DNA of 64,000 bases from Tetradesmus obliquus (Eukaryota; Chlorophyta; Chlorophyceae; Sphaeropleales; Scenedesmaceae), in contig CP126203.1 of assembly GCA_030272155.1 (NCBI GenBank), positions 3,224,001 through 3,288,000 on the forward strand, written 5' to 3'. Position 1 is the first letter of the stretch. Every line of letters begins with the position of its first letter. The notes under the pieces were generated by a model. It searched no databases and was not told where the DNA came from. It saw only the letters and a list, made by a program, of their open reading frames with translations. The position numbers were made by a program, and so were the translations under genes. Below, piece after piece: positions 6,047-36,932 of the stretch.

Positions 6047-9000
6047 TCAAGCCCTTACTGCCCCACGCACGCGCCCAGCCAGCAGCCGCAGCCAGCGCAG
6101 CAGCAGCCACGGCAGGCAGCCCAGCAGCAGCCACAGCGTCATCGCAATGCTGTTGGGGTACAGCAGCCCTTCAAGTGTGGCAGGCCTTGTCAGCAGCTGC
6201 TGGAAGCCCAGCTGGCGCCAGGCCTTGTACAGCGCTGCTGTCCTGCAAGCAGCACATGGCGGACAGTTACAGCATGGCATGAGACTTGCTGCTGTGCTTG
6301 TCATGCTTTGGGATGCACCTGGTTACAAGCAGCTGCTGGAAGCCCAGCTGGCGCCAGGCCTTGTACAGCGCTGCTGTCCTGCAAGCAGCACATGGCGGAC
6401 AGTTACAGCATGGCATGAGACTTGCTGCTGTGCTTGTCATGCTTTGGGATGCACCTGGTTACAAGCAGCTGCTGGAAGCCCAGCTGGCGCCAGGCCTTGT
6501 ACAGCGCTGCTGTCCTGCAAGCAGCACATGGCGGACAGTTACAGCATGGCATGAGACTTGCTGCTGTGCTTGTCATGCTTTGGGATGCACCTGGTTACAA
6601 GCAGCTGCTGGAAGCCCAGCTGGCGCCAGGCCTTGTACAGCGCTGCTGTCCTGCAAGCAGCACATGGCGGACAGTTACAGCATGGCATGAGACTTGCTGC
6701 TGTGCTTGTCATGCTTTGGGATGCACCTGGTTACAAGCAGCTGCTGGAAGCCCAGCTGGCGCCAGGCCTTGTACAGCGCTGCTGTCCTGCAAGCAGCACA
6801 TGGCGGACAGTTACAGCATGGCATGAGACTTGCTGCTGTGCTTGTCATGCTTTGGGATGCACCTGGTTACAAGCAGCTGCTGGAAGCCCAGCTGGCGCCA
6901 GGCCTTGTACAGTGCTGCTGTCCTGCAAGCAGCACATGGCGGACAGTTACAGCATGGCATGAGACTTGCTGCTGTGCTTGTCATGCTTTGGGATGCACCT
7001 GGTTACAAGCAGCTGCTGGAAGCCCAGCTGGCGCCAGGCCTTGTACAGCGCTGCTGTCCTGCAAGCAGCACATGGCGGACAGTTACAGCATGGCATGAGA
7101 CTTGCTGCTGTGCTTGTCATGCTTTGGGATGCACCTGGTTACAAGCAGCTGCTGGAAGCCCAGCTGGCGCCAGGCCTTGTACAGCGCTGCTGTCCTGCAA
7201 GCAGCAAGCACAGAACATGCACAGCAGCAAACACTTAGCATTCAAGCCATGCAGTGCACAGATGTACTTGCTGCAGTTCGCGGGCCACCTTATAGTAAAT
7301 CCCATGACTTGTCTGGATGCCCTCATTCCCCAGCTGCTGCATACTCACTTGTGCTTTGGGAATGAGACCTCAATCTGCAGGTCATGCCCAGGTTGCCCGT
7401 CTGCGCGTGGCAGTGCTGTAGCCATGACGATGCGGTCCATGTAGGAAGACAGCATTCGCACTGAACTGGCGACAAACTGCGTGCCTGCAGCCCCAGCAGC
7501 ATCACACAAAGCAACCCAGTATATGCGTGCTTGAGGTGCAGCGCAGTGTGCAAAGCTTGAGGGGGAAAGTAATCTGTGCATTCTGCAAGCTGTGGTTCAA
7601 AACTGCACTCGCAGGAACCAAGATGAGCAGCACCAACCCTACATGTACCTGACCTGGCAATGCAGTCGTCCAATCCATCGGGATGCTGCTGTACATAGCA
7701 GCATTGGCAGCTCAGCTACACTGCAGGAGCCGCTAGCCCAAACAACATGCACCATTTACACAATCTTGAAGCAATCCACCACCACGGAATGTGTGTGTGG
7801 CGCACCTGGCAGTGTGGGCAGGTCAGCAGCGCTGCATGTGATGCTGTCCATGACCACGTCCCCTGCATCAGTCTGCAGCAGCCCCTGGCATAGCTGCACC
7901 TTGGATGTCCAGCCTGCACGCCGCGCCGCCTCAAACCACTCAAACTGCGGGCAGCCATACATGATTTGTTTTGATAACACTTGATAACTCTTCACGTGTG
8001 AGTGCTATACATACAGCTGCAGCTGCTGGGTGTAGTTGCTGCAAGGCAGTGCTAGTGCGCAATATATGCTTCAGGCGTAGCAGCTGGTCCTTGCAGGAGC
8101 TGCCAAAGTGCCCAGCAAGCATGCATACCTCAACCAGACAACAGAGCGCTTGCAGGAAACAGCACAAACCGCTTGCAGGCAACAGCACCATCCCACCTGC
8201 TTGTTGATGGTGCCCCGTGGGTTGCCGAGCTCTTCCTGCAAGCCAGTTCTTAGGTGGTGCATCAGCTCCGGGCTTGCAGCACACACGCCAGCATCAGCAG
8301 CTGCAGCAGCTGCACGCGCAGCAGCTGCAGCTAGCAGCGGCTCGGGGCACCACACACGAATGCCCGACACTGAGGCGTTGGTGGCGCTGTCTTCTGGTAT
8401 ATCCATGCCGCACCTATGCACTCAAGGAGGTGGTGCACACAGACACCATGTGCTGTCAATGTACTTTGGTTGTAATTTTGGTCTGCTGACTGTTAGTGAC
8501 TGCTTCGCAAAAGTTGCCGCAAAACAAGCTGGTGTCTCAGCTGAACCACTGGTGGCAGATACTAGCAGCTGCAAACTGCTGCAACTGCGCAGCTCGTGGC
8601 CCTGCACTGCTGTGACTGCAGGACTTGGCACAAACGCCCTGCTGCATCCTTGCTACAGACAAGCACTTTCACAGCCAGCTGCCTCACCTGCCGCCTCTCA
8701 AGTTGACCACTGTTGACAGATGCAACCCCCCAAGCTGCTGCGCCTTCTCAGGCGCTGCTGCATACATGGTCGCCAGCAGCACCGCTGCTGCCGCCCCATT
8801 GGCTGAGTACCACATGCCTTGTGGCAGCGGGCAGGCTGCTGCTGCTGCCGCCTTCCAGTGCTGCAGCTGCTGCCCAGGGATGCGCCACACGCTGAACTCG
8901 CTGTCTGAACTTTGCAGGAGGCCTTTCCAGCCCATGAGGCAGCTGTCTGCTGGGTCCAGGGGGTCCCACTGCATGCACAAACATGAGAGTTCTTCAGCAA

Positions 9001-10502: not shown

Positions 10503-11660
10503 ACTATATGAAGTCAAGTACGTCAGTATTGCAACATGCTTTGACTGCGACGGACGGAAGACGCCAGTACAAGGCGGGAACGGCGTGTCGTGTGCAGCTG
10601 CAAACGAAGGAGACTTTGATAACGAAGTGTTGATATGAATTCCCATTTTGAAACAATACAATGGCACTATTGTAACGAAGCTCAGCTGGGAAGTGATTGT
10701 TGGAGACGTATGGTGCATACAACCTCGTTGAGCTGTGCACAGCTCCCAGCCCTTCCTTTGTTTGTGCATGTGGCTGGCTAAGCTCATGATCAGCTTGGCG
10801 GCAGACCCCAGCCGCCCTGAGTGTGGTCGTTTTGAAGATTAAAATGCTGCTGCCTGTCAGAGTTGTGCTGGCAGGTCATTCAGTTGCTCACCTTCACGAC
10901 GTGAGCCCGCTGCTGCGCCTGTGTCCTGGAGGGACCTAGAGATGAGCATGCCCCTGCTGCCACTTTATAAACAGGAGGTTTGCACCTAGTCACCTCATGT
11001 CAACGACCGAAACATTCTTATCATGGGCCTGCAGGTTGAGGCGCAGCCATGGGTTGCTGCAGTCAGCAGTGCACCACGTGCACGCTGCTGCCACTGCAGC
11101 AGAACAGACCATAGCATAGCAGTTCACTAAACATTGAGGCACATGCCCTGAAGAGGGGTTTTGAAATAACAAGAACGACAAGGAGAGAGCCTGTGGTTTA
11201 AGCACTCCAGTAATACTTGCCAGCACAGCATGTCACATTCTGGCGGTTCTACTGAGCATCGCTGGCATGGGGTGCTATGGGGTGCCTGCTATCATCATGA
11301 TGCGAAGCCTACTGCAGGCTGCTTGTAATCAAGCCTTAGCTTGCTGCTGGGTAAGCAAGCTTTTACCTTCCGCTCCACTCTGCTAGTTGTGCTTGTCAGT
11401 GCCACTGCAATTGCTGCCCAAACACAACAGCCACAGCTCACACTTTGATACGCACTGCGTATGGCTGAGCTAGCAGAAGCCGGATCGCGAGACACTGCCG
11501 CGTTGCAGGCTGCTTTCACGCAAGCTGTGCACAAGTGGGTGCTACCTGCTGCTGCTGTCGTGGCACAGATACTCTCGACAATTGCAGCAGAATCGGTTAC
11601 ATGGTTGCTTAGTGGTATTTGCCTTGACGCAGGCACCACGACGAGCTATGCAGCCGCGGC
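10503..11660. promoter_or_regulatory. Divergent intergenic region (BAHD-like / HECT genes)
   Basis: About 1.16 kb separates the inferred start of the minus-strand BAHD-like gene from the start of the plus-strand HECT gene, so both promoters should lie here. I see no gene with family similarity and no clear TATA box. An open frame begins with ATG at 11461, but it has no recognisable similarity and ends before the HECT start. Confidence 0.4.
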
Positions 11661-13021
11661 ATGAATCCGAACGAGGCTTGTGCTCTTGCACTGAGGGCAG
11701 CAGCTGGCCAAGGTAAGGCCATATGTCCCTGCCTGATGCTAGGCGGCTGTCAGGGAACTGCTAGCAGGTATCATGCAGCTTTAGATGAACAAAAGGCTGT
11801 TGTCGCTTCACACTGGGTAGCAGGGCACGGCCTTGTGGTACATTGCTGCCACTGACCCTGCTGCCCTGTAACTGCTGTTTGTCGCGCTACTGTGGGCGCT
11901 GCAGTTTTACTACCTGTGCGGCTATCAGAGCTGTACGAAGCACTCAAGGAGGCAGAGAGCAGCGGAAACTACCAGAGCGTCTGCAGCATGGTGAGCAGCA
12001 GCATGCGCATGTTGCAGCAGCATGGCCAGGTGCAGGCACCTGACAGTGTGCATGGCAGCAACAGCAGCAGTCCTTGCATGCATCAGCGGCGCTTGATGCA
12101 TCAGACATGATGCATATCGAGGTCTTGAACACCGTTCCAGGGTATGTGTGAATGCAGGTGTGCGTATGCAATTACAGTTGCAGGTGCTGTTGGCAATGTC
12201 TCATGCTGCGGGGACAATGTACAACCTTGCTGGCCAGCACTCAAAGCATAGCACACATAGCAGCACTGACAGCAAGTCTGCGACTTTTTTGTTACATTAT
12301 GTAACCTGTCAACCATGGCAGTTTGGTTTAAAGGCCTAGCCACATCATTTGATTACTGCTCTGCATCGGGCATATGCCCTGCTGCTGTCCACCACTGTGC
12401 AGATCCGCACATTCTTCGCCAGCCCAGATGCACTGCAGGCAGCCTTCTGGCCACAGCAGCAGCAGCAGCAGCAGGATGCATCTGACCAAACAAACAGCAG
12501 CAGCAACGGCAGCTCCTTGCCGGAGCAACCGCAGCAGCCAACATCAAGCAGCAGCGCCACACCTCCAGCAGCAGCAGCAGCAGCAGCCAAGTTGCAGCAG
12601 CAGCCGCCGTGGCTGCAGATAGACCCAGCAGCAGTGCAGCAACTGCATGACCGGCTGGAGGCCTGCCACTCTGAGGCAGTCAGGGATGCACTGCTGGAGG
12701 GCGGGCAGCAGCTACTGCTGCACATCTCCGACTGCTTCCACCAGGGCAAAGACAACCCAGGCTTCTGCCGGCAGGTGCGTTATAATACGCATCAGTGTTG
12801 TGCATATTCTGCAGTGAATGTCTCTCTGGGCTATTAATGGCAGCAAGTCACATGCCAGTCCTGTTCAAAGGTGCCGCGTGTGCAGGTCGACAGCGGTAGC
12901 CAACCATGCCAACTTGACTTCTTCGCTTGCTTGCATAAAATATATCAGCTGCAGCTGCCATCCAGGCCACTGTAGCTGCGCTGCTTATGTCTGCCTTCCA
13001 GCTGTGCTGATGGCGTCAAAC

Positions 13022-13057
<36 letters not shown>

Positions 13058-13295
13058 CGGCTGCGGCTGCGGCTGCACATTCTGCCAAATTCAGGTGTGT
13101 GGGCTGCTGGCCAACCCCTGGCTGCAGCACATGGAGTGCCACCACCTGCTGGCAGCAGCAGCAGGCGTGCTGGTTGAGTTAGGGCAGGCCCAGTTTGGAG
13201 CAGCAGCGCCCTCAGGCATTGCCTGCGGCGTGCCTTACAGCCAGCAGCTGCAGCAGCTGCTGCAGACGTGGCAGGCGCCGGAGATGCGCAGGTGT

Positions 13296-13340
<45 letters not shown>

Positions 13341-14113
13341 CTGTGGATGCTAGCCATGCAGCTGTTGTAGGACTCTAGGATCCAGACAAGCAGCAGGTAG
13401 TACAGTGCTGAGGATGCCTGCAAAGACAGCTGTGAGCGCCTGCAGGAACAGCACCAGCATGTTCTTGCTGCTTGCACAAACAAGCTCCAGCGCTTGCAGC
13501 AGCAGCAGTGCCTGCAAGAACAGCATAGCGAGCCAAAGCTGTTGTGCAGGGTTTTAAAAAGCATGCTGTTTGTTGTGTCACACAAGTTTGGTAACCGCAT
13601 TTCTGCATGTTGCTGCTTTGTATGTAGGGTTGTTGCGCTGCTGCAGCAGTACATCACTCTCACGCTATACCAGCAGCAAGCCATAACACCAGGCATAGAG
13701 GCAGCCACTCGGCTGCTGGGCCTGCTTGAGAAGGCTTCAAGCCAGCAGCAGCTGCTGGATATGGCTGAGTTCTATAATGATGCAGTGAATGAACCGGATT
13801 TCAACATCAAAGAAGACTACAAGCGCTGGAATGCGGTGCGTACACGAGTGTTACACTACAGCTGCATGCAAGCAGCTTTTTTGATGGCCTTCGTGGAGGC
13901 ACATACGTGCGCCGTCACCAACAAGTGTGACGTGGCGCGGCTCACAGTAATGGCGCGGCTACAGAAGAATTGACATGCATCGGAAGCAAATTGTCAGCTG
14001 ATGTGGCTGCTGCAGTGCGTTTGTGTTGTTTCTGCCTCTGGTGACTGCTTCGCCAGGCAAACCACACATCTCAACTTCTCCTCATGACATCTTCATCACA
14101 TCTTTATGACAAG

Positions 14114-14153
<40 letters not shown>

Positions 14154-16173
14154 GCCAGGGCCTGGGCCACTTCAGCTTCTGCGGCCACAGCTGGATCTAC
14201 GACCCCGCCTCCAAGTCGCGCATCCTGCAGCTGGAGAACCAGATGCAGCAGCTGGCAGCCTTCGAGAACAGCATGATGCAGGTGCGGATGTAGTAATAAT
14301 GCCTCACAGGTTCCATGCTTGCTGTGTCAGCTTAACGCTGGCAGCTGGAGAACCAGATGCAGCAGCTGGCAGCGTTTGAGAACATCATGATGCAGGTGCG
14401 GCTGTCAAATTGTTATCTTTAAATATCATCAACTGTATTTCATGCATTTGTGGCTTTGCTGAGAAAAGTTTGCAGCTGGAAAACCAGACGCAGCAGCTGG
14501 CGGCCTTCGAGAACAGCATGATGCAGGTCAGGGTGTGATTGTAGTATCAGCCGGGCTGCCGCAAGGTGCTGCTCGTGCAACTGATTGGTGCTTAGGTAGA
14601 ACCACTGTGTACTCGCCTGTGCTCTCCCTGCTAAACAGCGTAGCCTCTATCGGTTGCTGCCGTGCTGAGTCTTGTCGTCCCACTTCTGTCTGCTGTGCGA
14701 CAAGATGAATGCCTGATCCTGCAGCGGGGCTCTCTTGCAATGGGGTGCGCAACAGTTTACCTGCCCCTGCTGTTGTGCTGCAGGCGCTGATGGGTGGTGC
14801 GCGTGAGAGCTGCCCCTTCCTGCTGCCTGCTTCTGCATGTTGGATGGGCACTTGATGTAGCACCCGTGCTGATATCAGCGGTGTTGCACTTGCTGTTGTT
14901 TTGCTCTACTGCTGCTGTACAGGTGCTGATGGGTGGTGCGCGTGAGAGCTGCCCCTTCCTGCTGCTGCCCGCTCTTGCATGTTGGATGGGTGCCTGATGT
15001 AGCACCCGTGCTGCTGTTATGCTTTGCTGTGCTGATTCTGCTCTGCAGGCTCTGAAGAGGGGTGTTTGTATACACTGCTCCGCAGTTGCCTGCGTGCTCT
15101 TGCTCTTGCAGCACCCATGCTGACATCGGCGGCGTTTCCCCTGCTGTTGTTCTGATCTACTGCTGCTGTACAGGCGCTGATGGGTGGTGCGCGTGAGAGC
15201 TGCCCCTTCCTGCTGCTGCGTGTGCGGCGCGGCAGCTACCTGCTGCGCGACACGCTGATGCAGATCAACAACGCCAAGAACAACGGCAGCCTCAAGAAGC
15301 CACTCAAGGTGCGTGGTTTCGTCAATACAACACGTGTTATAGTTTGCATGTGGGAGCGTTCAAGCAGGGTGTGTTCGGGAGCGAGGATTGCTTTCATTGG
15401 GAAGGGGCAGCACCAAGAGCAACGAGCCCTTAAGAGCTACTCAATGTGCTGGGTTTGATCAATTTACAGTTTGCATTGAACAAGTATGAGGGCAGGCTGC
15501 AGGGCAACTTTTTCAATACCATCCTGCACACCTTGCGCTCCTCTCAAACCCTTATCACGTGCCCCCGCAGGTCAAGTTCATCGGCGAGGAGGATGGCGGC
15601 AGTCATTTTTGCAACCATCTTGCCATCACATCCTGCACACAGCACGTCTCACCCCTGCTGCATGCAGACGTTGACCACGCGTTGACTTCACCACACGTTG
15701 AAATGACCGCAGGTCAAGTTTATCGGCGAGGAGGGCGTGGACGAGGGTGGGCTGCAGAAGGAGTTTTTCCAGCTGCTGGTGCGCGAGTGCTTCAACCCTG
15801 AGTTCGGCATGTTCGTGTACAGGTGGGCTGGGGAGAGGGTATAAAACCCTATAACCTTCGGGGTGGGGGTGGGGGAGGATGGAGGAGGGTGGAGGAGAGG
15901 TTTTGGGATCTCGTTTGGTGTTTGGCATGTTTGTTTACAGTTGGGTAGGCGTCCGCAAAACGTTATGCTTGCAAATCACTGAGTCGAGCACAGCAGGCCT
16001 TGGCGCCCTCATTGTCAGGTGTTACTCCAGGTGTTGCACGCTGGTAACTGCATAACCTCCACCTGCTAAAGCAGCGCTTGCCGGTGTGCGGCTGTTGTTT
16101 TCTGTGGCTCAAGTCATGTGCGCAAACGCATGACTTCTTGACATGACTGCACAGCCTGTCCTACCCACGCTGC

Positions 16174-16210
<37 letters not shown>

Positions 16211-19200
16211 GCGGCTGCTGCTGCTGCTGCTGCTGCTGCCGCGGCTGCTGCTGCTGCTGCTGCTGGGCCGCAGTGAGGAGACGCACCTGCACTGGTTCCA
16301 TGCCAGCAGCATGGACCTGGACACAGAGTTTGAGCTCATCGGCATACTCATAGGTGCGCAGCACGCTGGTTGCAAGCCCCCGTCGAACACAGCCATGCCC
16401 TTGTGCCGTAGTGCATTCCCTGCAGGCGTGCGCAGGTGTTGTGCTGTGATGCTGTGGTTGATGTAAGGCTCAGTTGGTAGTCTTTCAGCACCCACTGCTG
16501 CATCTGCCCTGTGTTCACATTTGCTTTGATCACGTGTGCAGCCCAAGAAAACGTAAATATGTGCTGTGATTACTCTTGCTTTTGTGTTATTATATTTTCA
16601 AATGCAGGCCTGGCTATCTACAACAGCCACATCCTGGAGTTCCAGTTCCCGCTGGTGCTCTACAAGAAGCTCATGGGCCAGCCTCTGTCACTTCCCGATG
16701 ACCTGGCGGAACTTCACCCCGAAATTCACGCCAGCCTGGGGAAGCTCGCGGCGATGAGCGATGATGAACTTGCAGGCATGGGACTTACCTTCCAGGTGGG
16801 TGACACAGACACCAAACTGCAAACATCTGGCTGTTGTTCACTCCCTGCTGCCAAGCTGCATGCTGCCTGGTATCTGCTTGCCGTCAGTCTCACACTGCGT
16901 GTGTGCGGCCAGCAGTTACTGTAGTGACTTGTACAACTATATCAACAGCTGCTACTGTCACCCGCGCTTTCCTTGCAAGTGTTGACAGAGCTCGGGCGAC
17001 GCGTGGCAAAGTCATCACAGAAACTCAAATCATCAACCTGACACCACCCTCGACAAAACACTACTGCTGCTCTTGTCATGCACCGGCGGTGAAGCACTCC
17101 TGCTGCTCTTGTCCTGCAGGTGGAGAAAGAGGTTGGCTTTGGCGCGCTTGTGCCAGTACGATTACAGAAACCCTGAAACACCACTACTACTTCTTTTGCC
17201 GTGCAGGTGGAGACAGAGGTCGGCTTTGGCGAGCGCGTGGCAGTCGACCTCGTGCCAAACGGCAGCAGCATGCCAGTGACAGCCGCCAACGTGCAGCGCT
17301 ACATCAGCGCGTATGCGGAGCACCTGCTGAAAGGGGCCATTGCACGCCAGTTTGGCGCCTTCCAGCGAGGCTTCCTGCGGCTGTGCAGCGGCAAGGCGCT
17401 GCACTTCTTCAGGTGGGCAGGTTGAGGGCCCCAGCTTGTGAAAATGGTGTTGCCAGTTCCTGCATCAGGTGTTTGGCGCCTTCCAGCGGGGCTTCCTGCG
17501 GCTGTGTGTATTCTTTCAGGTGGGCAGCAGTCAGCCACAGCGCACGCGGTGAAGGTCATTTTTGAAGGACTTGCCAGCGACAGTAGCATGTACTGTGTGC
17601 AGTACAGTGGGCAGGCTGCATACACAGAACCAGACACAAGCCCTAGCAGCCACCACACACAATTTACAGTGCCAGGATCAGCTTTTGCACATCAGAAGAG
17701 CGAGAAACGCCGAAAACAGAAAATTTGCCCATTGCATTGCATTTGTTACACAGAGGCGGTCTCCCCAACCCCGCAGGGGCTAGGTACTGCCAGTCAAGCC
17801 AACACTCCGCCAATTAAGCCCTCGTATCATAAGAACCAGTGGGTATTTGTCCAACCTCCAGGTCCCCACACCGCGGTAACATGCCACCGTAAACGCAAGC
17901 ATGCATGCAATACAAGCAGGCTAGGACATGGAATGCAGTAGCTGCCGGCATACAACGCTACGATCACCCGCATAAGCAAACTAAACATGAATACAGGTGT
18001 GCTTATGCCGCCTGACGCAAAAACAGGGTGATCCTCCTGAGTCAACCCACAGTTAGCTGCTGGTCGACAGGCTTGCAGAAGCCCCTGCAACAATCACCTG
18101 CACACCACCTGGCAACAAAACGCACATGCAACACGAAGATTGGCCAGGCCTAACTCAATAGACTCGACAACAACAAGTGACGCTCGGGGCCAAAAGGCCT
18201 GGACTGCTGCAACCCGCACACAGAACCCTCGTCCCATCACAACGTGCAGTGTCAAGGGTCCCTTGACACTACAACAACACCGCCCCCTAGCAGACAACGA
18301 CACCGGCCACTTTGAGGTCAATGTCCCACGACCACGGCTATTAACCCATGGTGCCCACAGGAGTTGGCTGGATACGCCTGCAATCAAAGCTGACAAAAGT
18401 CAACTCCACAACGCCACCTGCCCACCGCCTTCTACTGGTGCTGGCAGAAGGAGAAGAGGGGTTACAAGGTGTGCACAGGCAACTACGTTGCAACGAACAC
18501 CCACACACACTGGTGCTGGCGGAAGAAGAAGAGGGTTTACACGGTGTGCACAGGCAACTACGTTGCAACGAACACCCGAAAATCTGGAACGTCGCAGATG
18601 ACTTAGCAAAACAGGCTGTCACTCAAGGAGACTCACCCCAGAAAGCCTCTCTGTGTGTGTAACATATGGCCTTGCAGGCAAAGCTGTCAGTCACAGCACA
18701 CGCAGTGTTGATGCTAAACAAAGGCAGGACTAGTGTAAACAGTGTCAGTGACAGCAAGCTGCACTTTATGCAGTGCAGCGGGCGGGCTGAACCCACAGAA
18801 CAACACCCACCAGCAGCAACACAGCCTGGCAGGCGGTGGTCTGAGGCGACAAACTGGGGAGAGAGAGCAGAGGACAAGCCAGCTGCTGCAAGGGCCGCAC
18901 AACTACAGTTTGCAGCAGCGATACGACAACTCACAGCTCCTGCAAAGCAAGACGGCTAGCTCTGGCATGTCAGAGGCTCACAGAGAAAGCACGTACACAC
19001 AGTGAGAAGAAGGCCATCACCGCCGCACCACACACAAACCATTGCCACACAACACAGTATGCCAGGCAATAAAAGGCTGCTGTGTGAGCAGCCGATTTCG
19101 ATACCGTGACGGCACCCTAGCCGTAGCAGCAAAGTCCGCAAGTGCCTCCCAAAAAGCACCTACTGCTGCTCTCACAGCCACTTGCTCCACCAGCTGGGGT

Positions 19201-22200
19201 ATCCCAAGGTCACTTGACACAGCCCACGCTGCCCTGCGGCCTTTCTCAAAAGCATGCACTGCTGCAAGACAGACCATGTCCCACACCAACCGATGTACAG
19301 CGTTATGGAGGGGGCACGCCAACCATATAGCTTGGCACGGCAGTACAGCACCTGTCGGCAACAAGTTGAACGCCCTTAGTTGACTTTCCACCTCACGCCG
19401 CACCGCCACAGCAACATGACATGTCCAAAAATGATGCTCCACCCCAGGCCCTGCAGCAGAACATGCTGCACACGCAGCAGTAGTCTTCATACGTTGAGCA
19501 CTAGGGAATGCATCTAAAGCCAAGCGCCACGCCGCTTCCTTGTACATGTTAGCCACCCGCACCTGCCACCAACCAGACAACACCGACTGCACTGCAGGCA
19601 GGCTGACTGCCATCGGCAGGGCATCCAGGGCTCTAACCCGAGTAACAAAGGCAGCATGGCGGGGCGCAATGGCATCAAGCGCAGCAAGACGTTGTAGCTT
19701 CGTGGCATCAGCAACCTGCAGATCAGCCAAACGTATAAAACCGTCTGCCCCTGGCCGCTGCCGACCCAAATCAGCACACAACTGTTCGCGCGCAATCAAA
19801 ATGTCCACAGGAGAAACAGAGGATAATTGTGCAACGCTCGTACCGGCAGCTTGGGCAGCCGCCAGGTGCGCGCGTGCTGCAGTATGCCACACAGACGGCA
19901 CAAACGACAGCAGATGCTGCACATGCTGCCGAGCCTGCTGCCGATCACCATACTGCGGTCTACTGCGCAGCCACGGGCCCCATATCTCGCGCTCATAAGC
20001 GGAGCGCTGAGCAGAAAGCCCTGGCAAGGCACCGACACGTTCAAGTTCTGACAACAGCAACACTGCCTGACCCAAACACTGCAGCTTGGGGAGCTCCAGC
20101 AGGCCACACGGCGCCACCTGTTCCAAGCCCACCTCCACCTGACGCTGCTGATCAAACCATTGCCATGACTGTATCACTGTAAACAGAGGATTGGCCCACA
20201 GCGGAGCCTCCCAGCACAAACCATCCACGTCCAACGGCTGGTTTCCCACATGACGCAACGGTGGCAGGGCACGCAAAGCCATCGCCAAAACACGCAAAGG
20301 CGATGGCAAGCAGGCATCCGCAGGAGCTGCAGGGAAGATATGATGACGGGCACACAACGCAAGGCCCCAAGGGCTACTAGCAGCAGCGCGCGTGAAACAA
20401 TCCACAGCGCTAGCCCACTGTGCCCACAACTCCCGTCCTACTGTCACCCACGGTGCAGCACCGCCCTGCAGGAGGGGGATTGCTTCCTGGCGGCTTCCTA
20501 CTGGTGCTGGCGAGAGGCTTGTTACAGGAGAAGGAAGAGGAAGAGGGGTTACACGGTGTGCACAGGCAAATACGTTGCAACGAACACCCGAAAATCTGGA
20601 ACGTCGCAGATGACTCAGCAAAACAGGCTGTCACTCAAGGAGACTCACCCCAGAAAGTCTCTCTGTGTGTGTAACTTGACATATGGCCTTGCAGGCAAAG
20701 TCGTCAGTCACAGCACACGCAGTGTTGATGCTAAACAAAGGCAGGACTAGTGTAAACAGTTTCAGTGACAGCAAGCTGCACTTTATGCAGTGCAGCGGGC
20801 GGGTTAAACCCACAGAACAACACCCACCAGCAGCAACACAGCCTGGCAGGCGGTGGTCTGAGGCGACAAACTGGGGAGAGAGAGCAGAGGACAAGCCAGC
20901 TGCTGCAAGGGCCGCACGACTACAGTTTGCAGCAGCGATACGACAACTCACAGCTCCTGCAAAGCAAGACGGCTAGCTCTGGCATGTCAGAGGCTCACAG
21001 AGACACGTACACACAGTGAGAAGAAGGCCATCACCGCCGCACCACACACAAACCATTGCCACGCAACACAGTATGCCAGGCAATAAAAGGCTGTTGTGTG
21101 AGCAGCCGATTTCTATACCATGACGGCACCCTAGCCGTAGCAGCAAAGTCCGCCATCCGCCCATCCCAAAAAGCACCTACTGCTGCTCTCACAGCCACTT
21201 GCTCCACCAGCTGGGGTACCCCAAGGTCACTTGACACAGCCCACGCTGCCCTGCGACCTTTCTCAAAAGCATGCACTACAGGAAGGCAAGCTATCACCCG
21301 TGCTGGCAAAGAACAGGGGTTACACGGTGTGCACAGGCAACTACGTTGCAACGAACACCCGAAAATCTGGAACGTCGCAGATGACTCAGCAAAACAGGCT
21401 GTCACTCAAGGAGACTCACCCCAGAAAGTCTCTCTGTGTGTGTAACCTGACATATGGCCTTGCAGGCAAAGCCGTCAGTCACAGCGCAGTGTTGATGCTA
21501 AACAAAGGCAGGACTAGTGTAAACAGTGTCAGTGACAGCAGGCTGCACTTTATGCAGTGCAGCGGGCGGGCTGAACCCACAGAACAACACCCACCAGCAG
21601 CAACACAGCCTGGCAGGCGGTGGTCTGAGGCGACAAACTGGGGAGAGAGAGCAGAGGACAAGCCAGCTGCTGCAAGGGCCGCACAACTACAGTTTGCAGC
21701 AGCGATACGACAACTCACAGCTCCTGCAAAGCAAGACGGCTAGCTCTGGCATGTCAGAGGCTCACAGAGAAAGCACGTACACACAGTGAGAAGAAGGCCA
21801 TCACCGCCGCACCACACACAAACCATTGCCACGCAACACAGTATGCCAGGCAATAAAAGGCTGTTGTGTGAGCAGCCGATTTTTATACCGTGACGGCACC
21901 CTAGCCGTAGCAGCAAAGTCCGCAAGTGCATCCCAAAAAGCACCTACTGCTGCTCTCACAGCCACTTGCTCCACCAGCTGGGGTATCCCAAGGTCACTTG
22001 ACACAGCCCACGCTGCCCTGCGGCCTTTCTCAAGAAGAAGAGGGGTTACACGGCCTTTCTCAAAAGCACCCGTGCTGGCAAAGAACAGGGGTCACACGGT
22101 GTGCACAGGCAACTACGTTGCAACGAACACCCGATCCAAACACCCGTGCTGGCCAAAGAAGAGGGGTTACACGGTGTGCACACCCGTGCTGGGGAGAGAG

Positions 22201-25200
22201 GTCTGTTACAGGGGTGGGCAAGCTATCGCCCTAGAGCGAGTCACTTGCCCCTCTTTCAGCTCACATATCATGAGAACCCGATAGCAAGCCACAAGATGCA
22301 ACCAAAGTAAAACTCCAGAGGCATCTTGCAGCCCCTACCTCCCCATAAACCAACAAGCACATGCAGTGCAGCATGTGCGAAGTGCAGCACGAAAAGCAGC
22401 AGGGTGCTCAAAGCACAGGGCACAAAACGCACAAGGGAAGGCAGGCATGGTCCAAACAGCAAGCGGGATGCACAATGGTGCTGCTTACCATAGGTGTTTG
22501 GCATGATTGCACCAAGGCACTGCTGTACACACCAGACTGCAGCAAGCAGGAGCACGCGGGACCGACAGGAGACACTGCATGTGACATGCAAACTAAGGTG
22601 CTACTGCTTCTGCAATCCTCATGGCTGACAAGCACAGAAGCACGCAATGCGACACACAGAGCTGGAAAATCAAGCACAGTGACACACGACATGCAACATG
22701 GCCTTGCCAGAAAGTGGAAATTGGACAACTACTGACAGCACATCATGTAAAAGCAGGAAGGCAGCAGCAGTCAACCAGAGCGGGGCGCCAGTACAATGCG
22801 CAGCTGTGCTGGATCAGAACGCAAGAACGGGTGATCTCCAGGCACCGCAACACGCCAATGAGCCGGCGCAGCCTCCATTGCCACTAAATCAGCAAGCAAT
22901 TGCCAAAACCGCAAAACCGCCTGCTGCTTCGCCTCCTGTAACACCTGCGCTATTAGTTGCTGTCGCTGTTGTTGTTGTTGCAGCAGCTGCTGCTGCCTAC
23001 GCTGCTCAACCAGCTGGTTATGCTGTTGCTGCGCAGCAGTGAGAGCTGCAGGCTGAACCACATCTGTAATAGGTACCTGCCATTGCGGCGGCGGCGCAGA
23101 CGGCCGCGGCGCAGCAGGCGAGGGCGGCGGAATGTGCAGCGTGATTTTGAGAGAGGTCTGTTACAGGGGTGGGCAAGCTATCGCCCTAGAGCGAGTCACT
23201 TGCCCCTCTTTCAGCTCACATATCATGAGAACCCGATAGCAAGCCACAAGATGCAACCAAAGTAAAACTCCAGAGGCATCTTGCAGCCCCTACCTCCCCA
23301 TAAACCAACAAGTACATGCAGTGCAGCATGTGCGAAGTGCAGCACGAAAAGCAGCAGGGTGCTCAAAGCACAGGGCACAAAACGCACAAGGGAAGGCAGG
23401 CATGGTCCAAACAGCAAGCGGGATGCACAATGGTGCTGCTTACCATAGGTGTTTGGCATGATTGCACCAAGGCACTGCTGTACACACCAGACTGCAGCAA
23501 GCAGGAGCACGCGGGACCGACAAGAGACACTGCATGTGACATGCAAACTAAGGTGCTACTGCTTCTGCAATCCTCATGGCTGACAAGCACAGAAGCACGC
23601 AATGCGACACAAAGAGCTGGAAAATCAAGCACAGTGACACACGACATGCAACATGGCCTTGCCAGAAAGTGGAAATTGGACAACTACTGACAGCACATCC
23701 TGCAAAAGCAGGAAGGTCAACCAGAGCGGGGCGCCAGTACAATGCGCAGCTGTGCTGGATCAGAACGCAAGAACGGGTGATCTCCAGGCACCGCAACACG
23801 CCAATGAGCCGGCGCAGCCTCCATTGCCACTAAATCAGCAAGCAATTCCCAAAACCGCAAAACCGCCTGCTGCTGCGCCTCCTGTAACACCTGCGCCATT
23901 AGTTGCTGTCGCTGTTGTTGTTGTTGCAGCAGCTGCTGCTGCCTACGCTGCTCAACCAGCTGGTTATGCTGTTGCTGCGCAGCAGTGAGAGCTGCAGGCT
24001 GAAACACATCTGTAATAGGTACCTGCCATTGCGGCGGCGGCGCAGACGGCCGCGGCGCAGCAGGCGCGGGCGGCGGAATGTGCAGCGTGTTAGCCTGCCG
24101 TCGGCCAACATCCACGGCATTCAGAGCAGCTAAAGAAACAACCCCCCAAACACCCTGGTGGAGCCGCTTAGGGCCGGGAGGCCGCTGCATCAACCAGACA
24201 TGCCGCATAGCAAGCGGCGGGCGGCCTGCAGCCCGCGTACACCATGTTGCAGGCATCGCAGACAGCAGGCTGTCAATCACATTTTGAGGGGTCTGACAGA
24301 GGGGTCGAGAGAGGTCTGGTACAGGGGTCTGACATTTTTTGAAGAAGAGGGGTTACACGGTGTGCACAGGCAACTACGTTGCAACGAACACCCGAAAATC
24401 TGGACGTCGCAGATGACTCAGCAAAACAGGCTGTCACTCAAGGAGACTCACCCCAAAAAGTCTCGCTGTGTGTGGAACTTGACATATGGCCTTGCAGGCA
24501 AAGCCGTCAGTCACAGCACACGCAGTATTGATGCTAAACAAAGGCATGACTAGTGTAAACAGTGTCAGTGACAGCAAGCTGCACTTTATGCAGTGCAGCG
24601 GGCGGGCTGAACCCACAGAACATCACCCACCAAGCAGCAACACAGCCTGGCAGGCGGTGGTCTGAGGCGACAAACTGGGGAGAGAGAGCAGAGGACAAAC
24701 CAGCTGCTGCAAGGGCCGCACAACTACAGTTTGCAGCAGCGATACGGCAACTCACAGTCTGACATTTTTCTGAAGAAGAGGGGTTACACGGTGTGCACAG
24801 GCAACTACGTTGCAACGAACACCCGAAAATCTGGAACGTCGCAGATGACTGACATTTTTGAGAGAGGTCTGTTACAGGGGTGGGCAAGCTATCGCCCTAG
24901 AGCGAGCCACTTGCCCCTCTTTCAGCTCACATATCATGACATTTTTTTCGGAAGAAGAGGGGTTACACGGTGTGCACAGGCAACTACGTTGCAACGAACA
25001 CCCGAAAATCTGGAACGTCGCAGATGACTCAGCAAAACAGGCTGTCACTCAAGGAGACTCACCCCAAAAAGTCTCGATGTGTGTGTAACTTGACATATGG
25101 CCTTGCAGGCAAAGCCGTCAGTCACAGCACACGCAGTTTGATGCTAAACAAAGGCAGGACTAGTGTAAACAGTGTTAGTGACAGCAAGCTGCACTTTATG

Positions 25201-27756
25201 CAGTGCAGCGGGCGGGCTGAACCCACAGAACAACACCCACCAAGCAGCAACACAGCCTGGCAGGCGGTGGTCTGAGGCGACAAACTGGGGAGAGAGAGCA
25301 GAGGACAAACCAGCTGCTGCAAGGGCCGCACAACTACAGTTTGCAGCAGCGATACGGTAACTCACAGCTCCTGCAAAGCAAGACGGCTAGCTCTGGCATG
25401 TCAGAAGCTCACAGAGAGCGCACGTACACACAGTGAGAAGAAGGCCATCACCGCCGCACCACACACAAACCATTGCCACGCAACACAGTATGCCAGGCAA
25501 CAAAAGGCTGTTGTGTGAGCAGCCGATTTCTATACCGTGACGGCACCCTAGCCGTAGCAGCAAAGTCCGCAAGGGCATCCCAGAAAGCACCTACTGCTGC
25601 TCTCACAGCCACTTGCTCCACCAGCTGGGGTACCCCAAGGTCACTTGACACAGCCCACGCTGCCCTGCGGCCTTTTTCAAAAGCATGCACTGCTGCAAGA
25701 CAGACCATGTCCCACACCAACCGATGTACAGCGTTATGAGGGGGGCACGCCAACCATATAGCTCGGCACGGCAGGACAGCACCTGCCGGCAACAAGTTGA
25801 ACGCCCGTAGTTGACTTTCCACCTCACGCCGTACCGCCACAGCAACAGGACATGCCCAAAAATGATGCTCCACCCCAGGCCCTGCAGCAGAACATGCTGC
25901 ACACGCAGCAGTAGCCTGCATACGTTGAGCAGTAGGGAATGCATCCAAAGCCAAGCGCCACGCCGCTTCCTTGTACATGTTAGCCACCCGCACCTGCCAC
26001 CAACGAGACAACACCGACTGCACTGCAGGCAGGCTGACTGCCACCGGCAGGGCATCCAGGGCTCTAATCCGAGTAACAAAGGCAGCATGGCGGGGCGCAA
26101 TGGCATCAAGCGCAGCAAGACGTTGTAGCTTCGTGGCATCAGCAACCTGCAGATCAGCCAAACGTATAAAACCGCCTGCCCCTGGCCGCTGCCAACCCAA
26201 ATCAGCACACAACTGTTCGCGCGCAATCAAAATGTCCACAGGAGAAACAGAGGATAATTGTGCAACGCTCATACCAGCAGCTTGGGCAGCCGCCAGGTGC
26301 GCGCGTGCTGCAGTGTGCCACACAGACGGCACAAACGACAGCAGATGCTGCACATGCTGCCGAGCCTGCTGCCGATCACCATACTGTGGTCTACTGCGCA
26401 GCCACGGGCCCCATATCTCGCGCTCATAAGCGGAGCGCTGAACAGAAAGCCCTGGCAAGGCACAGACACGTTCAAGTTCTGACAACAGCAACACTGCCTG
26501 ACCCAAACACTGTAGCTTGGGGAGCTCCAGCAGGCCACATGGCATTTTTTTTAAGAGAAGAGGGGTTACACGGTGTGCACAGGCAACTACGTTGCAACGA
26601 ACACCCGAAAATCTGGAACGTCGCAGATGACTCAGCATGGCATTTTTTTGGGAGTACAGATTTTTCGTTCGGGGCCAGCCACCACGCGGTGTTGCGCCCA
26701 CCGCGGCAACAATCTCACCACCAGCTCTCCAACGAGTTGTCAGTCCTCCGTGGTGTAGGCGGTTAGCATACGAGGTTCTCACCCTCGCGACCCGGGTTCG
26801 AGTCCCGGCGGGGGAATCGTGAACTTTTTGAAGGTGCCTAAGTTGGACTTTGTTTTGTCATGCGTCGCTTGCATCCCTTTGCCTTTGGTGGCAGCAGATG
26901 CCAGCTTTTGTGTTGTTGTTTGGTCAACGTTCTTAGGTCGACATTCTTACCCCTGCCCCTGCCCCTGCCCCTGCCTGCAGGCCTGCTGAGCTGGAGCAGC
27001 TGGTTTGTGGCGGCCGGGTGGTGGACCTGTCAGCGCTGCAGGCAGCCACGCAGTACGATGATGGCTACAGCCAGCACAGCACGTCCATCCGCTGGTTCTG
27101 GGAGGTGAGGCACTTTGTGGACTTTTTGTTGTTTTTGAAGTTTAGCAGATGCACTGCTTGTTGGTGACAGCAGCACGATGACGGCTGCAGCCAGCACAGC
27201 ACGCCCATCCGCTGGTTCTGGGAGGTGAGGCACTCTTTAACGTGCCGTTACTTTGAGCTAAAGCACCGCAGGTTGCTGACAGCAATACAATGACGGCCAC
27301 AGCCAGCACAGCACACCCACAGTACATCCGTCCTTTTACACCCATCGGCTGGTTCAGGGAGTTGAAGGATTGGTGTTTTTTTGGCTGTAGCCAGCATATC
27401 AATTCATGATCCAGCACACACCGCTTTGCACACGCCTTCGGCTCAGTCCGTGTGCCTCTGCAGGTTCTTACTGCAGTGTTTGTCGTTTCTGCATGCAGGT
27501 GGTGCACTCACTTGATGACGCGCAGCAGAAGCGGCTGCTGTTCTTCATAACAGGCTCAGACAGGGTTCCCATCAAGGGCTTAGCCCACCTCAGCCCGCCT
27601 TTTGTGATCAGCCGCAACGGAAATGACAGCACGCGGCTGCCCACGGCCCACACCTGCTTCAACCACCTGCTGTTGCCGGCGTATAAGGACAAGGACACGA
27701 TGCGGCAGCGGCTGCTGCTGGCGATTGAAAATGCAGAAGGCTTTGGGCTGCTGTGA
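11661..27756 (+). CDS. HECT-type E3 ubiquitin ligase, HECTD2/UBE3A-like
   Basis: Proposed exons: 11661-11712, 11905-12029, 12403-12774, 13095-13291, 13628-13835, 14159-14281, 15174-15308, 15713-15822, 16274-16353, 16608-16795, 17207-17412, 26981-27104 and 27499-27756. All phases agree and give 725 residues (human HECTD2 is similar in size). Exon 3 carries a polyQ/Ser-rich segment. The HECT N-lobe is seen in [27 protein letters not shown] and [11 protein letters not shown]; the C-lobe in [19 protein letters not shown] and [14 protein letters not shown], with the thioester Cys at about residue 692 and the final EGFGLL typical of HECTs. The ligase accepts ubiquitin from an E2 on this Cys and passes it to substrates. 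The first three exons are less certain than the rest (12340 is an alternative start for exon 3). Intron 11 holds 9.6 kb of retroelement debris, yet the AG|G codon phase is intact on both sides. A TGTAA at 28181 may end the transcript. Confidence 0.85.
13297..13339 (+). repeat. (CTG)n run just inside a HECT intron
   Basis: About 14 CTG triplets begin a few bases after the donor AG|GTGTGG at 13291. This is one of few cases in the window where the run follows a donor rather than precedes an acceptor. Confidence 0.8.
14224..14526 (+). repeat. Three copies of a 51-base exon tail (HECT exon 6)
   Basis: The last 51 bases of exon 6 (14231-14281, [17 protein letters not shown]) recur at 14345-14395 and 14476-14526, each after GCAG and before GTGCGG or GTCAGG. 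All three are in the same phase, so inclusion would lengthen a helical segment by 17 residues per copy. Confidence 0.85.
14784..15230 (+). repeat. Three copies of the HECT exon 7 start
   Basis: The acceptor plus exon start GCGCTGATGGGTGGTGCG occurs at 14784, 14923 (as GTGCTG) and 15174. Only the copy at 15174 continues into [13 protein letters not shown] and is taken as the real exon; the others diverge after about 50 bases. Confidence 0.85.
15571..15950 (+). repeat. Partial duplicates at both ends of HECT exon 8
   Basis: The exon start CGCAG|GTCAAGTT appears first at 15571 and again at 15713, where the full exon follows. The exon end (FGMFVYR with its donor, to 15822) is echoed near 15919-15945 by a degenerate copy without a good donor. 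Confidence 0.7.
16171..16265 (+). repeat. Long (CTG)n run with CCGCGG interruptions before HECT exon 9
   Basis: About 95 bases of CTG repeats are broken twice by CCGCGG and end nine bases before the acceptor CCGCAG|TGAGG of exon 9. Confidence 0.85.
18446..18508 (-). mobile_element. Family A 3'-end fragment (A1a)
   Basis: Only the terminal part of family A is present, flanked on both sides by ACTGGTGCTGGC (18434-18445 and 18509-18520). These are read as target-site duplications of a severely truncated insertion. Confidence 0.65.
18521..20511 (-). mobile_element. Longest family A retroelement copy (A1b)
   Basis: About 2 kb: the 3' UTR-like part lies at 18521-19016 and coding sequence from 19017 rightward. 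The copy is bounded by CTGGTGCTGGC on both sides (18510-18520 and 20501-20511). No reverse transcriptase or endonuclease domain remains, so the copy is 5'-truncated and cannot be autonomous. Confidence 0.65.
19017..20510 (-). pseudogene. C-terminal part of a non-LTR-type retroelement protein
   Basis: A minus-strand frame stays open for about 500 codons and ends in NGLCVVRR-stop. It contains [16 protein letters not shown], then [14 protein letters not shown] and [13 protein letters not shown]. The spacing C-x2-C ... H-H-F-W-x-C resembles the zinc-binding region found after reverse transcriptase in plant and algal LINE-like elements (zf-RVT type). The first 35-40 codons of the apparent longer open frame (to 20621) belong to the neighbouring A copy read antisense, so the open frame is a chimera and its start is not a real initiation codon. 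The same protein is represented by shorter tails at 21031-21290 and 21801-22004 and by a longer copy at 25448-26537. Confidence 0.6.
20528..21288 (-). mobile_element. Family A copy A2 (5'-truncated)
   Basis: Contains the complete 3' UTR-like segment (about 20528-21030) and the last about 85 codons of the element protein, then stops abruptly. It is followed by a scrap of family C (GGCAAGCTATC) and the site CACCCGTGCTGGC-type sequence near 21297. Confidence 0.65.
21309..22031 (-). mobile_element. Family A copy A3 (5'-truncated)
   Basis: Same 3' end and coding tail as A2 (stop at 21801), with truncation at CGGCCTTTCTCA. A 20-base scrap of the extreme A 3' end follows at about 22033-22050 and is itself bounded by CGGCCTTTCTCAA on both sides. 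Confidence 0.65.
22192..23140 (-). mobile_element. Family C retroelement copy C1
   Basis: Near-identical to the left part of the next copy (23147 on) and to 30353-31290. It includes a 3' UTR-like segment and a minus-strand coding tail ending IVLAPRSG-stop at 22771, with a Gln-rich stretch. It is truncated at GTGCAGCGTG, where C2 begins after ATTTT. Confidence 0.65.
23147..24285 (-). mobile_element. Family C retroelement copy C2
   Basis: Extends about 190 bases further into coding sequence than C1. The minus-strand frame 23717-24280 carries [17 protein letters not shown], a Pro-rich linker, a Gln-rich region and the shared C-terminus IVLAPRSG. Truncated 5' at CTGTCAATCAC, followed by scraps of other C 3' ends. 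Confidence 0.65.
24328..24948 (-). mobile_element. Serial short insertions at one TGACATTTTT site (A4, A5, C5)
   Basis: Copies of TGACATTTTT or CTGACATTTTT occur at 24328-24340, 24758-24769, 24849-24859 and 24937-24948. Between them lie an A fragment of about 415 bases (24341-24757), an A fragment of about 80 bases (24770-24848) and a C fragment of about 77 bases (24860-24936). On the minus strand each fragment ends in a short A run merging with the duplicated target, as expected for oligo(A)-tailed target-primed insertions that re-used the same site. Confidence 0.7.
24949..26537 (-). mobile_element. Family A copy A6, with protein tail 25448-26537
   Basis: Second-longest A copy. Its minus-strand frame encodes about 360 codons colinear with 19017-20100, including [20 protein letters not shown] and [12 protein letters not shown], and ends in the same stop context at 25448. 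It starts at the TGACATTTTTTT site and ends at CATGGCATTTTTTT. Confidence 0.65.
26553..26635 (-). mobile_element. Tiny family A 3'-end insertion A7
   Basis: About 80 bases of the A 3' end are flanked by CATGGCATTTTTTT at 26538-26552 and 26636-26649. This is a clean target-site duplication of about 14 bases. Confidence 0.75.
26744..26816 (+). tRNA. tRNA-Glu (anticodon CTC)
   Basis: A full cloverleaf can be drawn. The acceptor stem TCCTCCG pairs with CGGGGGA (one T-G pair) before discriminator A, the D arm contains GGCGGTTAGC, the anticodon loop reads TTCTCAC with anticodon CTC, and the T arm is CCGGG-TTCGAGT-CCCGG. No intron and no encoded CCA. It lies inside HECT intron 11, on the same strand, right after the retroelement cluster. 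Confidence 0.95.
27055..27310 (+). repeat. Three copies of the HECT exon 12 tail
   Basis: The exon end with donor (RWFWE|GTGAGG, 27104) recurs at about 27171-27224 with an equally good donor and again, degenerate, near 27285-27310. The second copy also has CAG before its GACGGCTGCAGCC block. Confidence 0.8.
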
Positions 27757-28030
27757 GAGTTGGGAGCCTGGCTGTGATGGGTCTAGTTTGCCAGCTGCTG
27801 CTGATGTGAAGCGGTGCTGCTACTGCGGCTGCTGCTGGCAATAGAGATTGCAGAAGGCTTTGGGCTGCTGTGAGAATAGGGAGGGGGACCGGGTGGGATG
27901 GAATTTGCCAGCTGCTGCTGATGTGAAGCGGTGCGGTGCTGTTGCTGCGGCTGCTGCTGGCAATTGAGAATGCAGAAGGCGTTGGGCTGCTGTGAGAGTG
28001 GGGAGGGGACCGGGTGGGATGCAACATGCC
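27715..28030 (+). repeat. Tandem triplication of the HECT C-terminal coding end and stop
   Basis: The sequence coding [11 protein letters not shown]-stop plus about 80 bases of 3' UTR is repeated about every 120 bases (copies near 27717, 27837 and 27957). The second and third copies lie after the real stop at 27756 and are therefore 3' UTR. Confidence 0.85.
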
Positions 28031-28199
28031 AGCTGCTGCTAGCTGAGAAGCGCAGCAAGTGCTGCTGCTGCTGCTGTTGCTGCTGCTGGTACCGCTGCAA
28101 GTGGTTTAGCAGCATCTTGCACAGATTGGTGTGGTTCCTTTGAGGGTTTCTTAGCCAGCGCCGTAGTCTGATTGGCAGTTTGTAAGAAATTCTAGTGGG

Positions 28200-36150: not shown

Positions 36151-36183
<33 letters not shown>

Positions 36184-36259
36184 TGAAGATAAGGAGGTCA
36201 TGGTGTTGCAATTGGGGTGGGCGTGGGTGTGGCTGCAGTGATCGGCACACTGAAGGTAA

Positions 36260-36295
<36 letters not shown>

Positions 36296-36932
36296 GCGGT
36301 GGCGGCCGCGGCATCAGCAGCAGGGTCAGCACATGCGGCTGGTGCTGGCAAGATGATTGAATGGTAGTGGCAGCTAATGCTCACTGTAACTTGGTCAGGA
36401 TCCTTACTGCCTATGCTGTTCCCTGTGTTTGCCGTCCCTTTTGCGGTTTCTCTACGCCATCTCGCTCAAGACCCAATTGCCTGTTCCGTCCCCTGATTGT
36501 TTGTCATTTTGCAGTTCCTGTACTCCATCTCGCTGAAGATCCTAACTGCCTGTTCCGTCCCCTGAATGTTTGTCCTGTTGCAGTTCCTGTACTCCATCTC
36601 GCTGAAGATCCTAATCGCCGTGACGCTGGCACCCACAGTCGCTTGCGCCTGCTACATGCAGTGGTGAGTCATACTAATAGTCCACCAGCCAAAGCACAGT
36701 GTCTTAAGACACTTTGTTTGTCAGAACCGAAAGCAAAGGACAGGAAACATGTATTAGGCACTGGTGGGACCAGCTGTGGTGTACTGCCCACAACTGACAT
36801 TCATATTTGTGAGTTATCCTGTGATACCCACTGCTGTACTGCAATGCGCTGCTGCTAGTGGAGGGTGTGTAATCGTCATTGCAGTGGAGCGCTCACAAAT
36901 TACAGCCAGTTTGCTGGGCCACACTCATTTTT

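Follow-up and report, generated by a model that had tools for sequence, protein, structure and literature searches.

Truncated copies of exon ends in introns of Tetradesmus obliquus, possibly by-products of recurrent short local duplication

Introns of the green alga Tetradesmus obliquus contain truncated copies of the ends of the exons that they adjoin. We describe these copies in a 64 kb stretch of contig C13 (CP126203.1, positions 3,224,001 to 3,288,000; hereafter the window, to which coordinates refer unless a contig is named), part of an assembled genome of 104.66 Mb in 17 contigs, and in one further gene of the same contig. Four genes with protein-anchored exons have 116 splice ends, and for 32 of these the adjoining intron contains one or more copies of at least 30 nt. 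The explanation that we favor, at a probability of roughly 45%, is that short local duplication recurs in this genome, and that duplications crossing a splice junction leave exon ends in introns, mostly as by-products.

The exons of three window genes, HECT (14 exons), DUF1538 (19) and CBS (11), were set by spliced alignment of the annotated proteins P0109, P0229 and P0001, respectively. For HECT we discarded a final aligned piece of one base and took 27756 as the stop end of exon 14. The second DUF1538 gene (C13:1291654-1304967; the paralog) was modeled by the same spliced alignment, with 18 exons used. These models underlie the codon, flank and splice-end counts; other exons come from a self-trained hidden Markov model (HMM), whose first round drifted to tiny exons and over-predicts, a stricter version being used afterwards. 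The HMM-derived donors read CAG/GTGAG and the acceptors have a TGCAG end (the slash marks the splice site). Of the gene names in the preliminary description, Pfam supports HECT, DUF1538 and KCS; the predicted BAHD-like and SWIM-like pieces have no Pfam match, and the sole Pfam match of the CEP83-like piece is a coiled-coil under the cut-off, which leaves all three names unverified.

Measured against the protein-anchored exons of the three window genes, the truncated exon-end copies with splice site that the preliminary description had reported are confirmed, and its account of their density, their tandem or near-tandem local arrangement, the retained splice signal and the absent other exon end is supported. 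We counted 43 copies in the three window genes (Table 1) and 28 in the independent paralog, with one to six copies per exon end across the four genes. By gene, the splice ends with a copy of at least 30 nt number 4/26 in HECT, 13/36 in DUF1538, 3/20 in CBS and 12/34 in the paralog. The splice-end counts, like the gapped-flank counts given below, are confined to copies of at least 30 nt and do not include HECT exon 14, whose copied part is the stop-codon end; de-duplication also took the DUF1538 exon 5 copy (31 nt) out of the 32/116 count. In HECT, 3' ends are copied at exons 7 and 13, 5' ends at exons 8 and 12, and in exon 14 the part with the stop codon; for exon 9 we find no more than a 28-nt match. 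There are also pieces that stop short of any exon end (HECT, two; CBS, two; paralog, five), and some of these belong to the same families as truncated members. Each of P0109, P0229 and P0001 contains every exon piece once.

The placement of the copies follows a simple rule: 3'-end copies lie downstream of their exon and 5'-end copies upstream, the exception being one complete exon copy. This direction follows from the geometry, because the copy attached to the remaining exon is the functional one. The largest number of copies in the preliminary description, about 11, also stands, in the SWIM-like array, where we find the exon end, nine further copies by pattern and one with an altered splice site by eye. 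In the BAHD-like array the unit consists of an intron end with its acceptor (...TTGCAG/GACAGC...) and about 51 nt of exon start, and each 136-nt unit can be read as a 60-nt in-frame mini-exon; judging by the 99% matches between units, this array is young.

Tandem whole-exon duplication was rejected as a class, since only one of the 43 window copies (DUF1538 exon 16) is complete. A minisatellite class fits the BAHD-like array; the four protein-anchored genes have the one to six copies per exon end mentioned above, with 35 of 106 flank pairs homologous, and the class was rejected for them. An introner or other dispersed mobile origin was rejected as well: in DNA searches of the genome, exon-copy stretches matched only the locus of origin among the matches listed (in two of the searches the best 40 of 105 and the best 40 of 323 candidates were scored), and the dispersed matches that did appear belong to other parts of the introns.

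Occurrence across the genome, a question that the preliminary description had raised, is supported by loci sampled beyond the window. Local repeats were found in 12 of 14 sampled loci, amounting to 91 pairs in 140 kb (0.65 pairs/kb, exons taken from the HMM), and intron-only and intergenic repeats are present too. The sample is drawn without loci L010, L012, L024, L025, L027 and L028, and the repeat listing fell from 365 to 185 pairs when overlapping pairs and long self-overlapping arrays were dropped. Exons are involved more often than expected: in the four genes an overlap of at least 20 nt with an exon is seen in 37 of 42 repeat families (HECT being represented by exons 1-12, without 13-14), against 25.1 +/- 3.0 after shifting (0/1000 shifts), and in the 14 sampled loci 63 of 91 pairs touch an exon against 46.8 +/- 4.8 in shifted controls (1/1000). 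The preliminary description had held that it would fall if copies were no commoner at exon ends than elsewhere; this did not prove to be so, although the excess at exons is a modest 1.35-1.5 fold.

The distance between copies is the same with and without exons. For both kinds of pair the offset peaks at 80-159 nt, which accounts for 58 of 118 exon-related and 18 of 40 non-exon pairs, and the medians are 152 and 152.5. These spacing counts, as well as the age comparison of exon-involving and intron-only pairs given below, omit loci L010 and L012 and the mobile-element-rich stretches 18000-26600 and 28100-33900. Unit size is therefore not set by splicing; since a splicing constraint would affect exon-related pairs only, the spacing suggests an effect of the process by which the duplications form. 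Minimum intron length was rejected as a cause of the spacing on the same ground, non-exon pairs being spaced identically.

Under the favored explanation, short local duplications, mostly 80-160 nt apart, would recur genome-wide in introns, intergenic DNA and exons, as they do in our sample. Where one spans an exon-intron junction, the copy joined to the remaining exon would stay functional and the other would be left in the intron as a truncated piece of exon that carries a spare splice site, which matches the geometry seen. Junction-crossing events may be tolerated since the original junction stays usable, duplications within coding exons presumably being mostly lost. Selection that holds one partner, the exon, constant may let a pair survive longer and make it easier to detect, and the exon excess may come from this. 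Copies would multiply further as tandem units, and they may exchange sequence with functional haplotypes of the exon, in which case the longer copies would be expected to show mostly synonymous differences. Most copies would be by-products, with a few that happen to form in-frame mini-exons. Local duplication explains the spread, the spacing, the geometry and the neutral behavior of the short copies.

Several results weigh against this explanation, and duplication alone leaves three things unexplained: that exons are in excess at every age, that flanks are missing and that long copies have a synonymous excess. Concerning age, the exon excess is alike in every identity class, with 8/12 exon-touching pairs against 5.7 expected at 93% identity or more (126/1000 shifts), 29/40 against 19.8 at 85-93% (2/1000) and 26/39 against 21.1 below 85% (69/1000), clear significance being reached in the middle class alone. 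Nor do the raw counts by age bear out a longer survival of exon-involving pairs, their ratio to intron-only pairs being 9:4 at 95% identity or more and 104:27 below; on these data the excess may arise at birth or through survival. An exon bias growing with age was rejected, because the initial contrast of 9:8 with 105:27 fell to these values once the mobile-element stretches were removed.

Concerning the flanks, simple tandem duplication predicts homology that runs on into the intron. Ungapped identity (40 rows) is about 91% in the exon part; beyond the splice site it is 67% over the first 10 nt and 33% over the 50 nt that follow. With gapped local alignment, in which simple repeats were masked (with CTG runs masked, flank homology is harder to detect), the flank is homologous in 22 of 57 comparisons, equal to 22 of 56 distinct copies, some of these stretches being only 10-30 nt long. 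The earlier statement that copies start or stop exactly at a splice site thus stands for part of the copies and fails for those 22, which extend into homologous intron. The remaining 34 of 56 have no detectable flank homology though their exon part is only 0.091 diverged; they carry 116 synonymous and 59 nonsynonymous differences, and 14 of 32 exon ends lack flank homology. In these 34 copies the flank would seem to have been either not copied or replaced. Replacement by insertion is possible at the DUF1538 exon 10 copy, because its spacer holds a short dispersed element of about 55 nt (intron 10, ~39536-39597; at least 39 other genome matches).

Concerning coding differences, mismatches between exon and copy fall at codon positions 1/2/3 in the proportions 40/33/127 in the window and 37/29/97 in the paralog. 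We compared them with a neutral simulation in which the exon accepts synonymous changes only and the copy accepts all; it took in 69 of the 71 copies, two mismatch-free copies being left out. Over all 69 copies, which are not independent (several belong to one exon), 219 of 363 differences are synonymous against 162 +/- 9 simulated. Taking one copy per exon end, those of at least 55 nt have 97/145 synonymous differences against 63.8 +/- 5.4 under neutrality (0/300), and those below 55 nt have 35/75 against 34.0 (131/300), that is, no excess. A model-free test agrees: in exon-related pairs one frame has more than its share of the mismatches (302/547 against 272 +/- 7; 0/2000), and non-exon pairs have no period-3 signal (90/183 against 96.2). 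It used the pairs with at least three mismatches, at least 80% identity and no more than 250 nt, namely 64/118 exon-related and 28/40 others.

Where two or more copies allowed differences to be polarized, exon branches carry 11 synonymous changes and 1 nonsynonymous, and copy branches carry 49 and 59 against a null of about 30% synonymous, which by arithmetic is about half the neutral nonsynonymous rate. The synonymous share on copy branches is 34/72 for copies of at least 55 nt and 15/36 for shorter ones; the excess is therefore partial, as if the copies had evolved for part of their history in a setting where protein mattered. In 6 of 127 codons with an amino-acid difference the copy has the residue found in another T. 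obliquus protein and its own exon deviates, three of the six being one codon in three copies; some copies therefore predate changes in the exon. Partial gene-conversion tracts were rejected, and this too tells against the favored explanation, as mismatches are unclustered (62 copies with at least three mismatches, mean z 0.04). For the synonymous excess of the long copies we see two candidates, namely use in some messages, or descent from exon haplotypes by unequal exchange.

Use would mean that the copies serve as alternative exon ends, mini-exons or alternative first exons, with purifying selection acting on the protein, and we judge this unlikely. It would account for the synonymous excess in long copies and on copy branches and for all-synonymous families such as the 5'-end copies of paralog exon 16 (4:0, 3:0, 3:0 and 3:0). 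Two protein records point the same way: P0002, from another T. obliquus record, has a 16-residue exon-8 piece twice in frame, and P0232, the annotated paralog protein, starts inside a truncated copy where P0230, of another T. obliquus assembly, uses the full exon; both P0002 and P0232 may, however, be gene-prediction errors. Some T. obliquus protein clusters have several members on one contig (nine for P0109, eight for P0004, five for P0229), which may be isoforms, but P0005 and P0110, from relatives and by name seemingly transcript assemblies, show single copies.

The splice sites themselves speak against general use. Splice dinucleotides are kept in 24/26 copies for GT and 29/33 for AG, and by our own estimate this retention is about what neutral decay would leave at their divergence, so they look unprotected. 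Paired with an opposite splice site, 10/26 3'-type and 14/33 5'-type copies give a mini-exon divisible by 3, and this total of 24/59, near one third, led us to reject the idea that the copies in general are open in-frame mini-exons with two splice sites. The best donor of 5'-type copies reaches at least the 10th percentile of real donors in only 3/20 cases in the window, and in 8/13 in the paralog, and in several copies there are stop codons or the splice site is gone. General translation of the copies is therefore unlikely, and the making of isoforms, which the preliminary description had offered as a role, is not borne out as a general one, given the near-chance frame and the mostly weak donors of the window. 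Single mini-exons look usable, namely HECT 14476-14526, CBS 59167-59226 and those of the BAHD-like array.

The second candidate, unequal exchange, can be extended further than the favored explanation takes it. Exon and intronic copies might form one co-evolving set in which the intronic copies are renewed from the exon and feed back into it by unequal exchange, copies long enough to recombine being kept compatible with the protein. We consider this unlikely; if true, an exon end would have in its own intron a standing reserve of synonymously recoded, protein-compatible spares.

Pure neutral decay, that is, random tandem duplication with nothing but detection bias added, is improbable. It would suit the neutral behavior of the short copies and the lack of a period-3 signal in non-exon pairs, and where the flank is homologous, divergence of 0.082 in the exon part and 0.141 in the flank gives a ratio of 0.58, near our expectation of 0.65 if the exon is constrained and its copy neutral. 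The synonymous excess of long copies nevertheless lies far beyond the neutral simulation, the copy-branch counts strain it as well, homology is lost at the splice site in many copies, and the exon bias is flat with age.

Copying coupled to splicing or transcription, by which exon ends with their splice consensus would be deposited into introns, is also quite improbable. The steep drop of identity beyond the splice site and the exon ends without any homologous flank are what it would lead us to expect, and the exon excess is already present, if not significantly so, among the most similar pairs. Yet 22 of 56 copies include homologous intron flank, the same repeat distance holds away from exons, and the one non-homologous spacer that holds a dispersed element may in that case be explained by later insertion. 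An assembly artefact, to which only the near-identical 136-nt array lends itself, is extremely improbable: 27 of 40 exon-end rows are 85-95% identical to their exon and thus not producible by assembly stutter, and an analogous repeated piece occurs in P0002, which comes from another record.

The preliminary description knew of no account of such density, and none was found in the literature searched, a body in which subscription papers are mostly outside coverage. Nearest in kind is a potato RdRp gene in which a tandem duplication crossing an intron-exon boundary produced a new intron (PMC4974935). There, as here, the duplicated stretch spans an intron 3' end and the start of the next exon, splice signals are inherited and an extra exon piece is left within intronic sequence. 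The potato example is one case with a new intron detected, whereas within 64 kb we count copies in the tens, at donors as well as acceptors, and most of them lack a second splice site. By the potato pattern, in which exon and intron parts are both copied, a homologous flank is present in 22/56 copies and undetected in 34/56 with simple repeats masked. Rogers' intron-gain model, in which an exon segment containing AGGT is duplicated (PMC4974935), likewise has tandem duplication near splice signals with the protein unchanged, but its segment is internal to the exon, whereas our copies lie next to an intron that already exists and carry the splice site of that intron.

Tandem exon duplication and mutually exclusive exons (PMC9013439) resemble our case in local exon copying, DUF1538 exon 16 having a complete copy, and differ in that nearly all our copies are partial, with one exon end only. 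Plant work of 2016 on tandem duplications after adjacent nicks, cited in PMC8153287, offers a route by which tandem duplications can arise in plant genomes, although those duplications are an induced repair outcome. For Scenedesmus acutus, intron retention is reported, and exon copies go unmentioned in the parts of PMC12899622 covered.

By extrapolation, 0.65 pairs/kb would mean tens of thousands of local repeat pairs genome-wide. The alga would then offer many natural trials of splice-junction duplication, in which the choice between copies, the rate of new introns or exons and the decay of spare sites could be followed. A dated, replicated series would make the boundary-crossing route of intron gain testable, for which potato is the one printed case that we found (PMC4974935). 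At a practical level, gene prediction can be misled by copies of exon ends whose splice sites are intact, as P0232 illustrates, and spliced read alignment probably can be too.

Table 1. Genes and exon-end copies in the window (syn, synonymous; nonsyn, nonsynonymous differences from the exon)
Feature	Window position	Strand	Basis or remarks
BAHD-like array, 136-nt unit x 7.5, 99% matches	6192..7206	-	exon model by HMM only
HECT gene	exons 1-12 11461..17412; exons 13-14 26981-27756	+	P0109 (OEZ86_009249) alignment; Pfam HECT
HECT exon 7 3'-end copy, 55 nt, donor GTGCGG	14341..14395	+	2 syn, 1 nonsyn
HECT exon 7 3'-end second copy, donor GTCAGG; possible 51-nt in-frame mini-exon 14476-14526	14471..14526	+	
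HECT exon 8 5'-end copies x2, with acceptors (14784-14836, 14925-14968)	14784..14968	+	
HECT exon 12 5'-end copy, decayed	17120..17157	+	2 syn, 4 nonsyn
HECT exon 13 3'-region copies x2 (27170-27224 reaches end; 27282-27314 stops short)	27170..27314	+	
HECT exon 14 stop-codon end and 3' flank, 117-nt unit x 3.1, not at splice site	27708..28082	+	
DUF1538 gene, 19 exons	33973..45139	+	P0229 (OEZ85_000714, other T. obliquus assembly) alignment; Pfam
DUF1538 exon 3 5'-part copy, 93 nt	34547..34639	+	4 syn, 0 nonsyn
DUF1538 exon 3 3'-end copies x6, within 523-nt higher-order repeat	35077..35897	+	
DUF1538 exon 4 3'-end copy	36192..36255	+	
DUF1538 exon 5 5'-start copy, 31 nt	36515..36545	+	
DUF1538 exon 7 3'-end copy + gtgag	37526..37574	+	
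DUF1538 exon 9 3'-end copy	38850..38895	+	
DUF1538 exon 10 3'-end copy, 98 nt + 10 nt intron	39609..39706	+	6 syn, 0 nonsyn; flank non-homologous
DUF1538 exon 11 5'-end copies x2 (39854-39919; 40048-40138)	39854..40138	+	40048-40138: 4 syn, 0 nonsyn
DUF1538 exon 11 3'-end copy, last exon base altered	40637..40695	+	4 syn, 0 nonsyn
DUF1538 exon 14 5'-end copy, acceptor lost	41466..41502	+	
DUF1538 exon 15 5'-end copy, acceptor lost	41892..41929	+	
DUF1538 exon 16 5'-end partial copies x4	42603..42966	+	
DUF1538 exon 16 complete copy, 92 nt, both splice sites, upstream of exon	43019..43110	+	6 syn, 0 nonsyn
DUF1538 exon 16 3'-end copy	43339..43390	+	1 syn, 3 nonsyn
DUF1538 exon 17 5'-end copies x2	43591..43725	+	
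SWIM-like exon (51025-51131, HMM) and ~10 downstream 3'-end copies, separated by CAG runs	49729..51131	-	
CEP83-like (coiled-coil) gene, 117-nt unit x 2.6	53912..54229	-	exon 53731-53965 by HMM only
CBS-domain gene, 11 exons	58308..63755	+	P0001 (OEZ86_009253) alignment
CBS exon 3 3'-end copy; possible 60-nt in-frame mini-exon 59167-59226	59144..59226	+	
CBS exon 7 5'-end copies x4 (61186, 61330, 61489, 61604)	61186..61645	+	
CBS exon 7 3'-end copy + gtgag	62093..62163	+	3 syn, 0 nonsyn

The introns have further features of their own. Predicted introns often end in CTG runs right before the acceptor (TGCTGCTGCAG), according to the profile of the first-round, over-predicting HMM; the preliminary description had proposed such runs as possible seeds of slippage. 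DUF1538 intron 9 holds a 69-nt dispersed element (~38932-39000) with at least 40 other genome matches at 87-94% on both strands. Among the listed matches of the intron 10 element, six lie on contig C8, at 240-305 kb, where there seems to be a 10.6-kb tandem array, since four of the five gaps equal exactly 10,568 nt. HECT intron 12 (17413-26980) is about 9.6 kb long with tandem and dispersed repeats, and a predicted frame in it has a weak match to zf-RVT, the reverse-transcriptase zinc-binding domain (E 0.00055, under the curated cut-off); repeats and match together suggest that the intron probably contains a retroelement insertion. The same intron includes a tRNA-Glu (ctc) gene at 26744-26816, and a tRNA-Ser (gct) gene lies at 32572-32653. 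Near the start of the window, at 138-165 and 3.2 Mb into contig C13, there is a short repeat of the ACCTAACCTAA type, which we take to be telomere-like in appearance.

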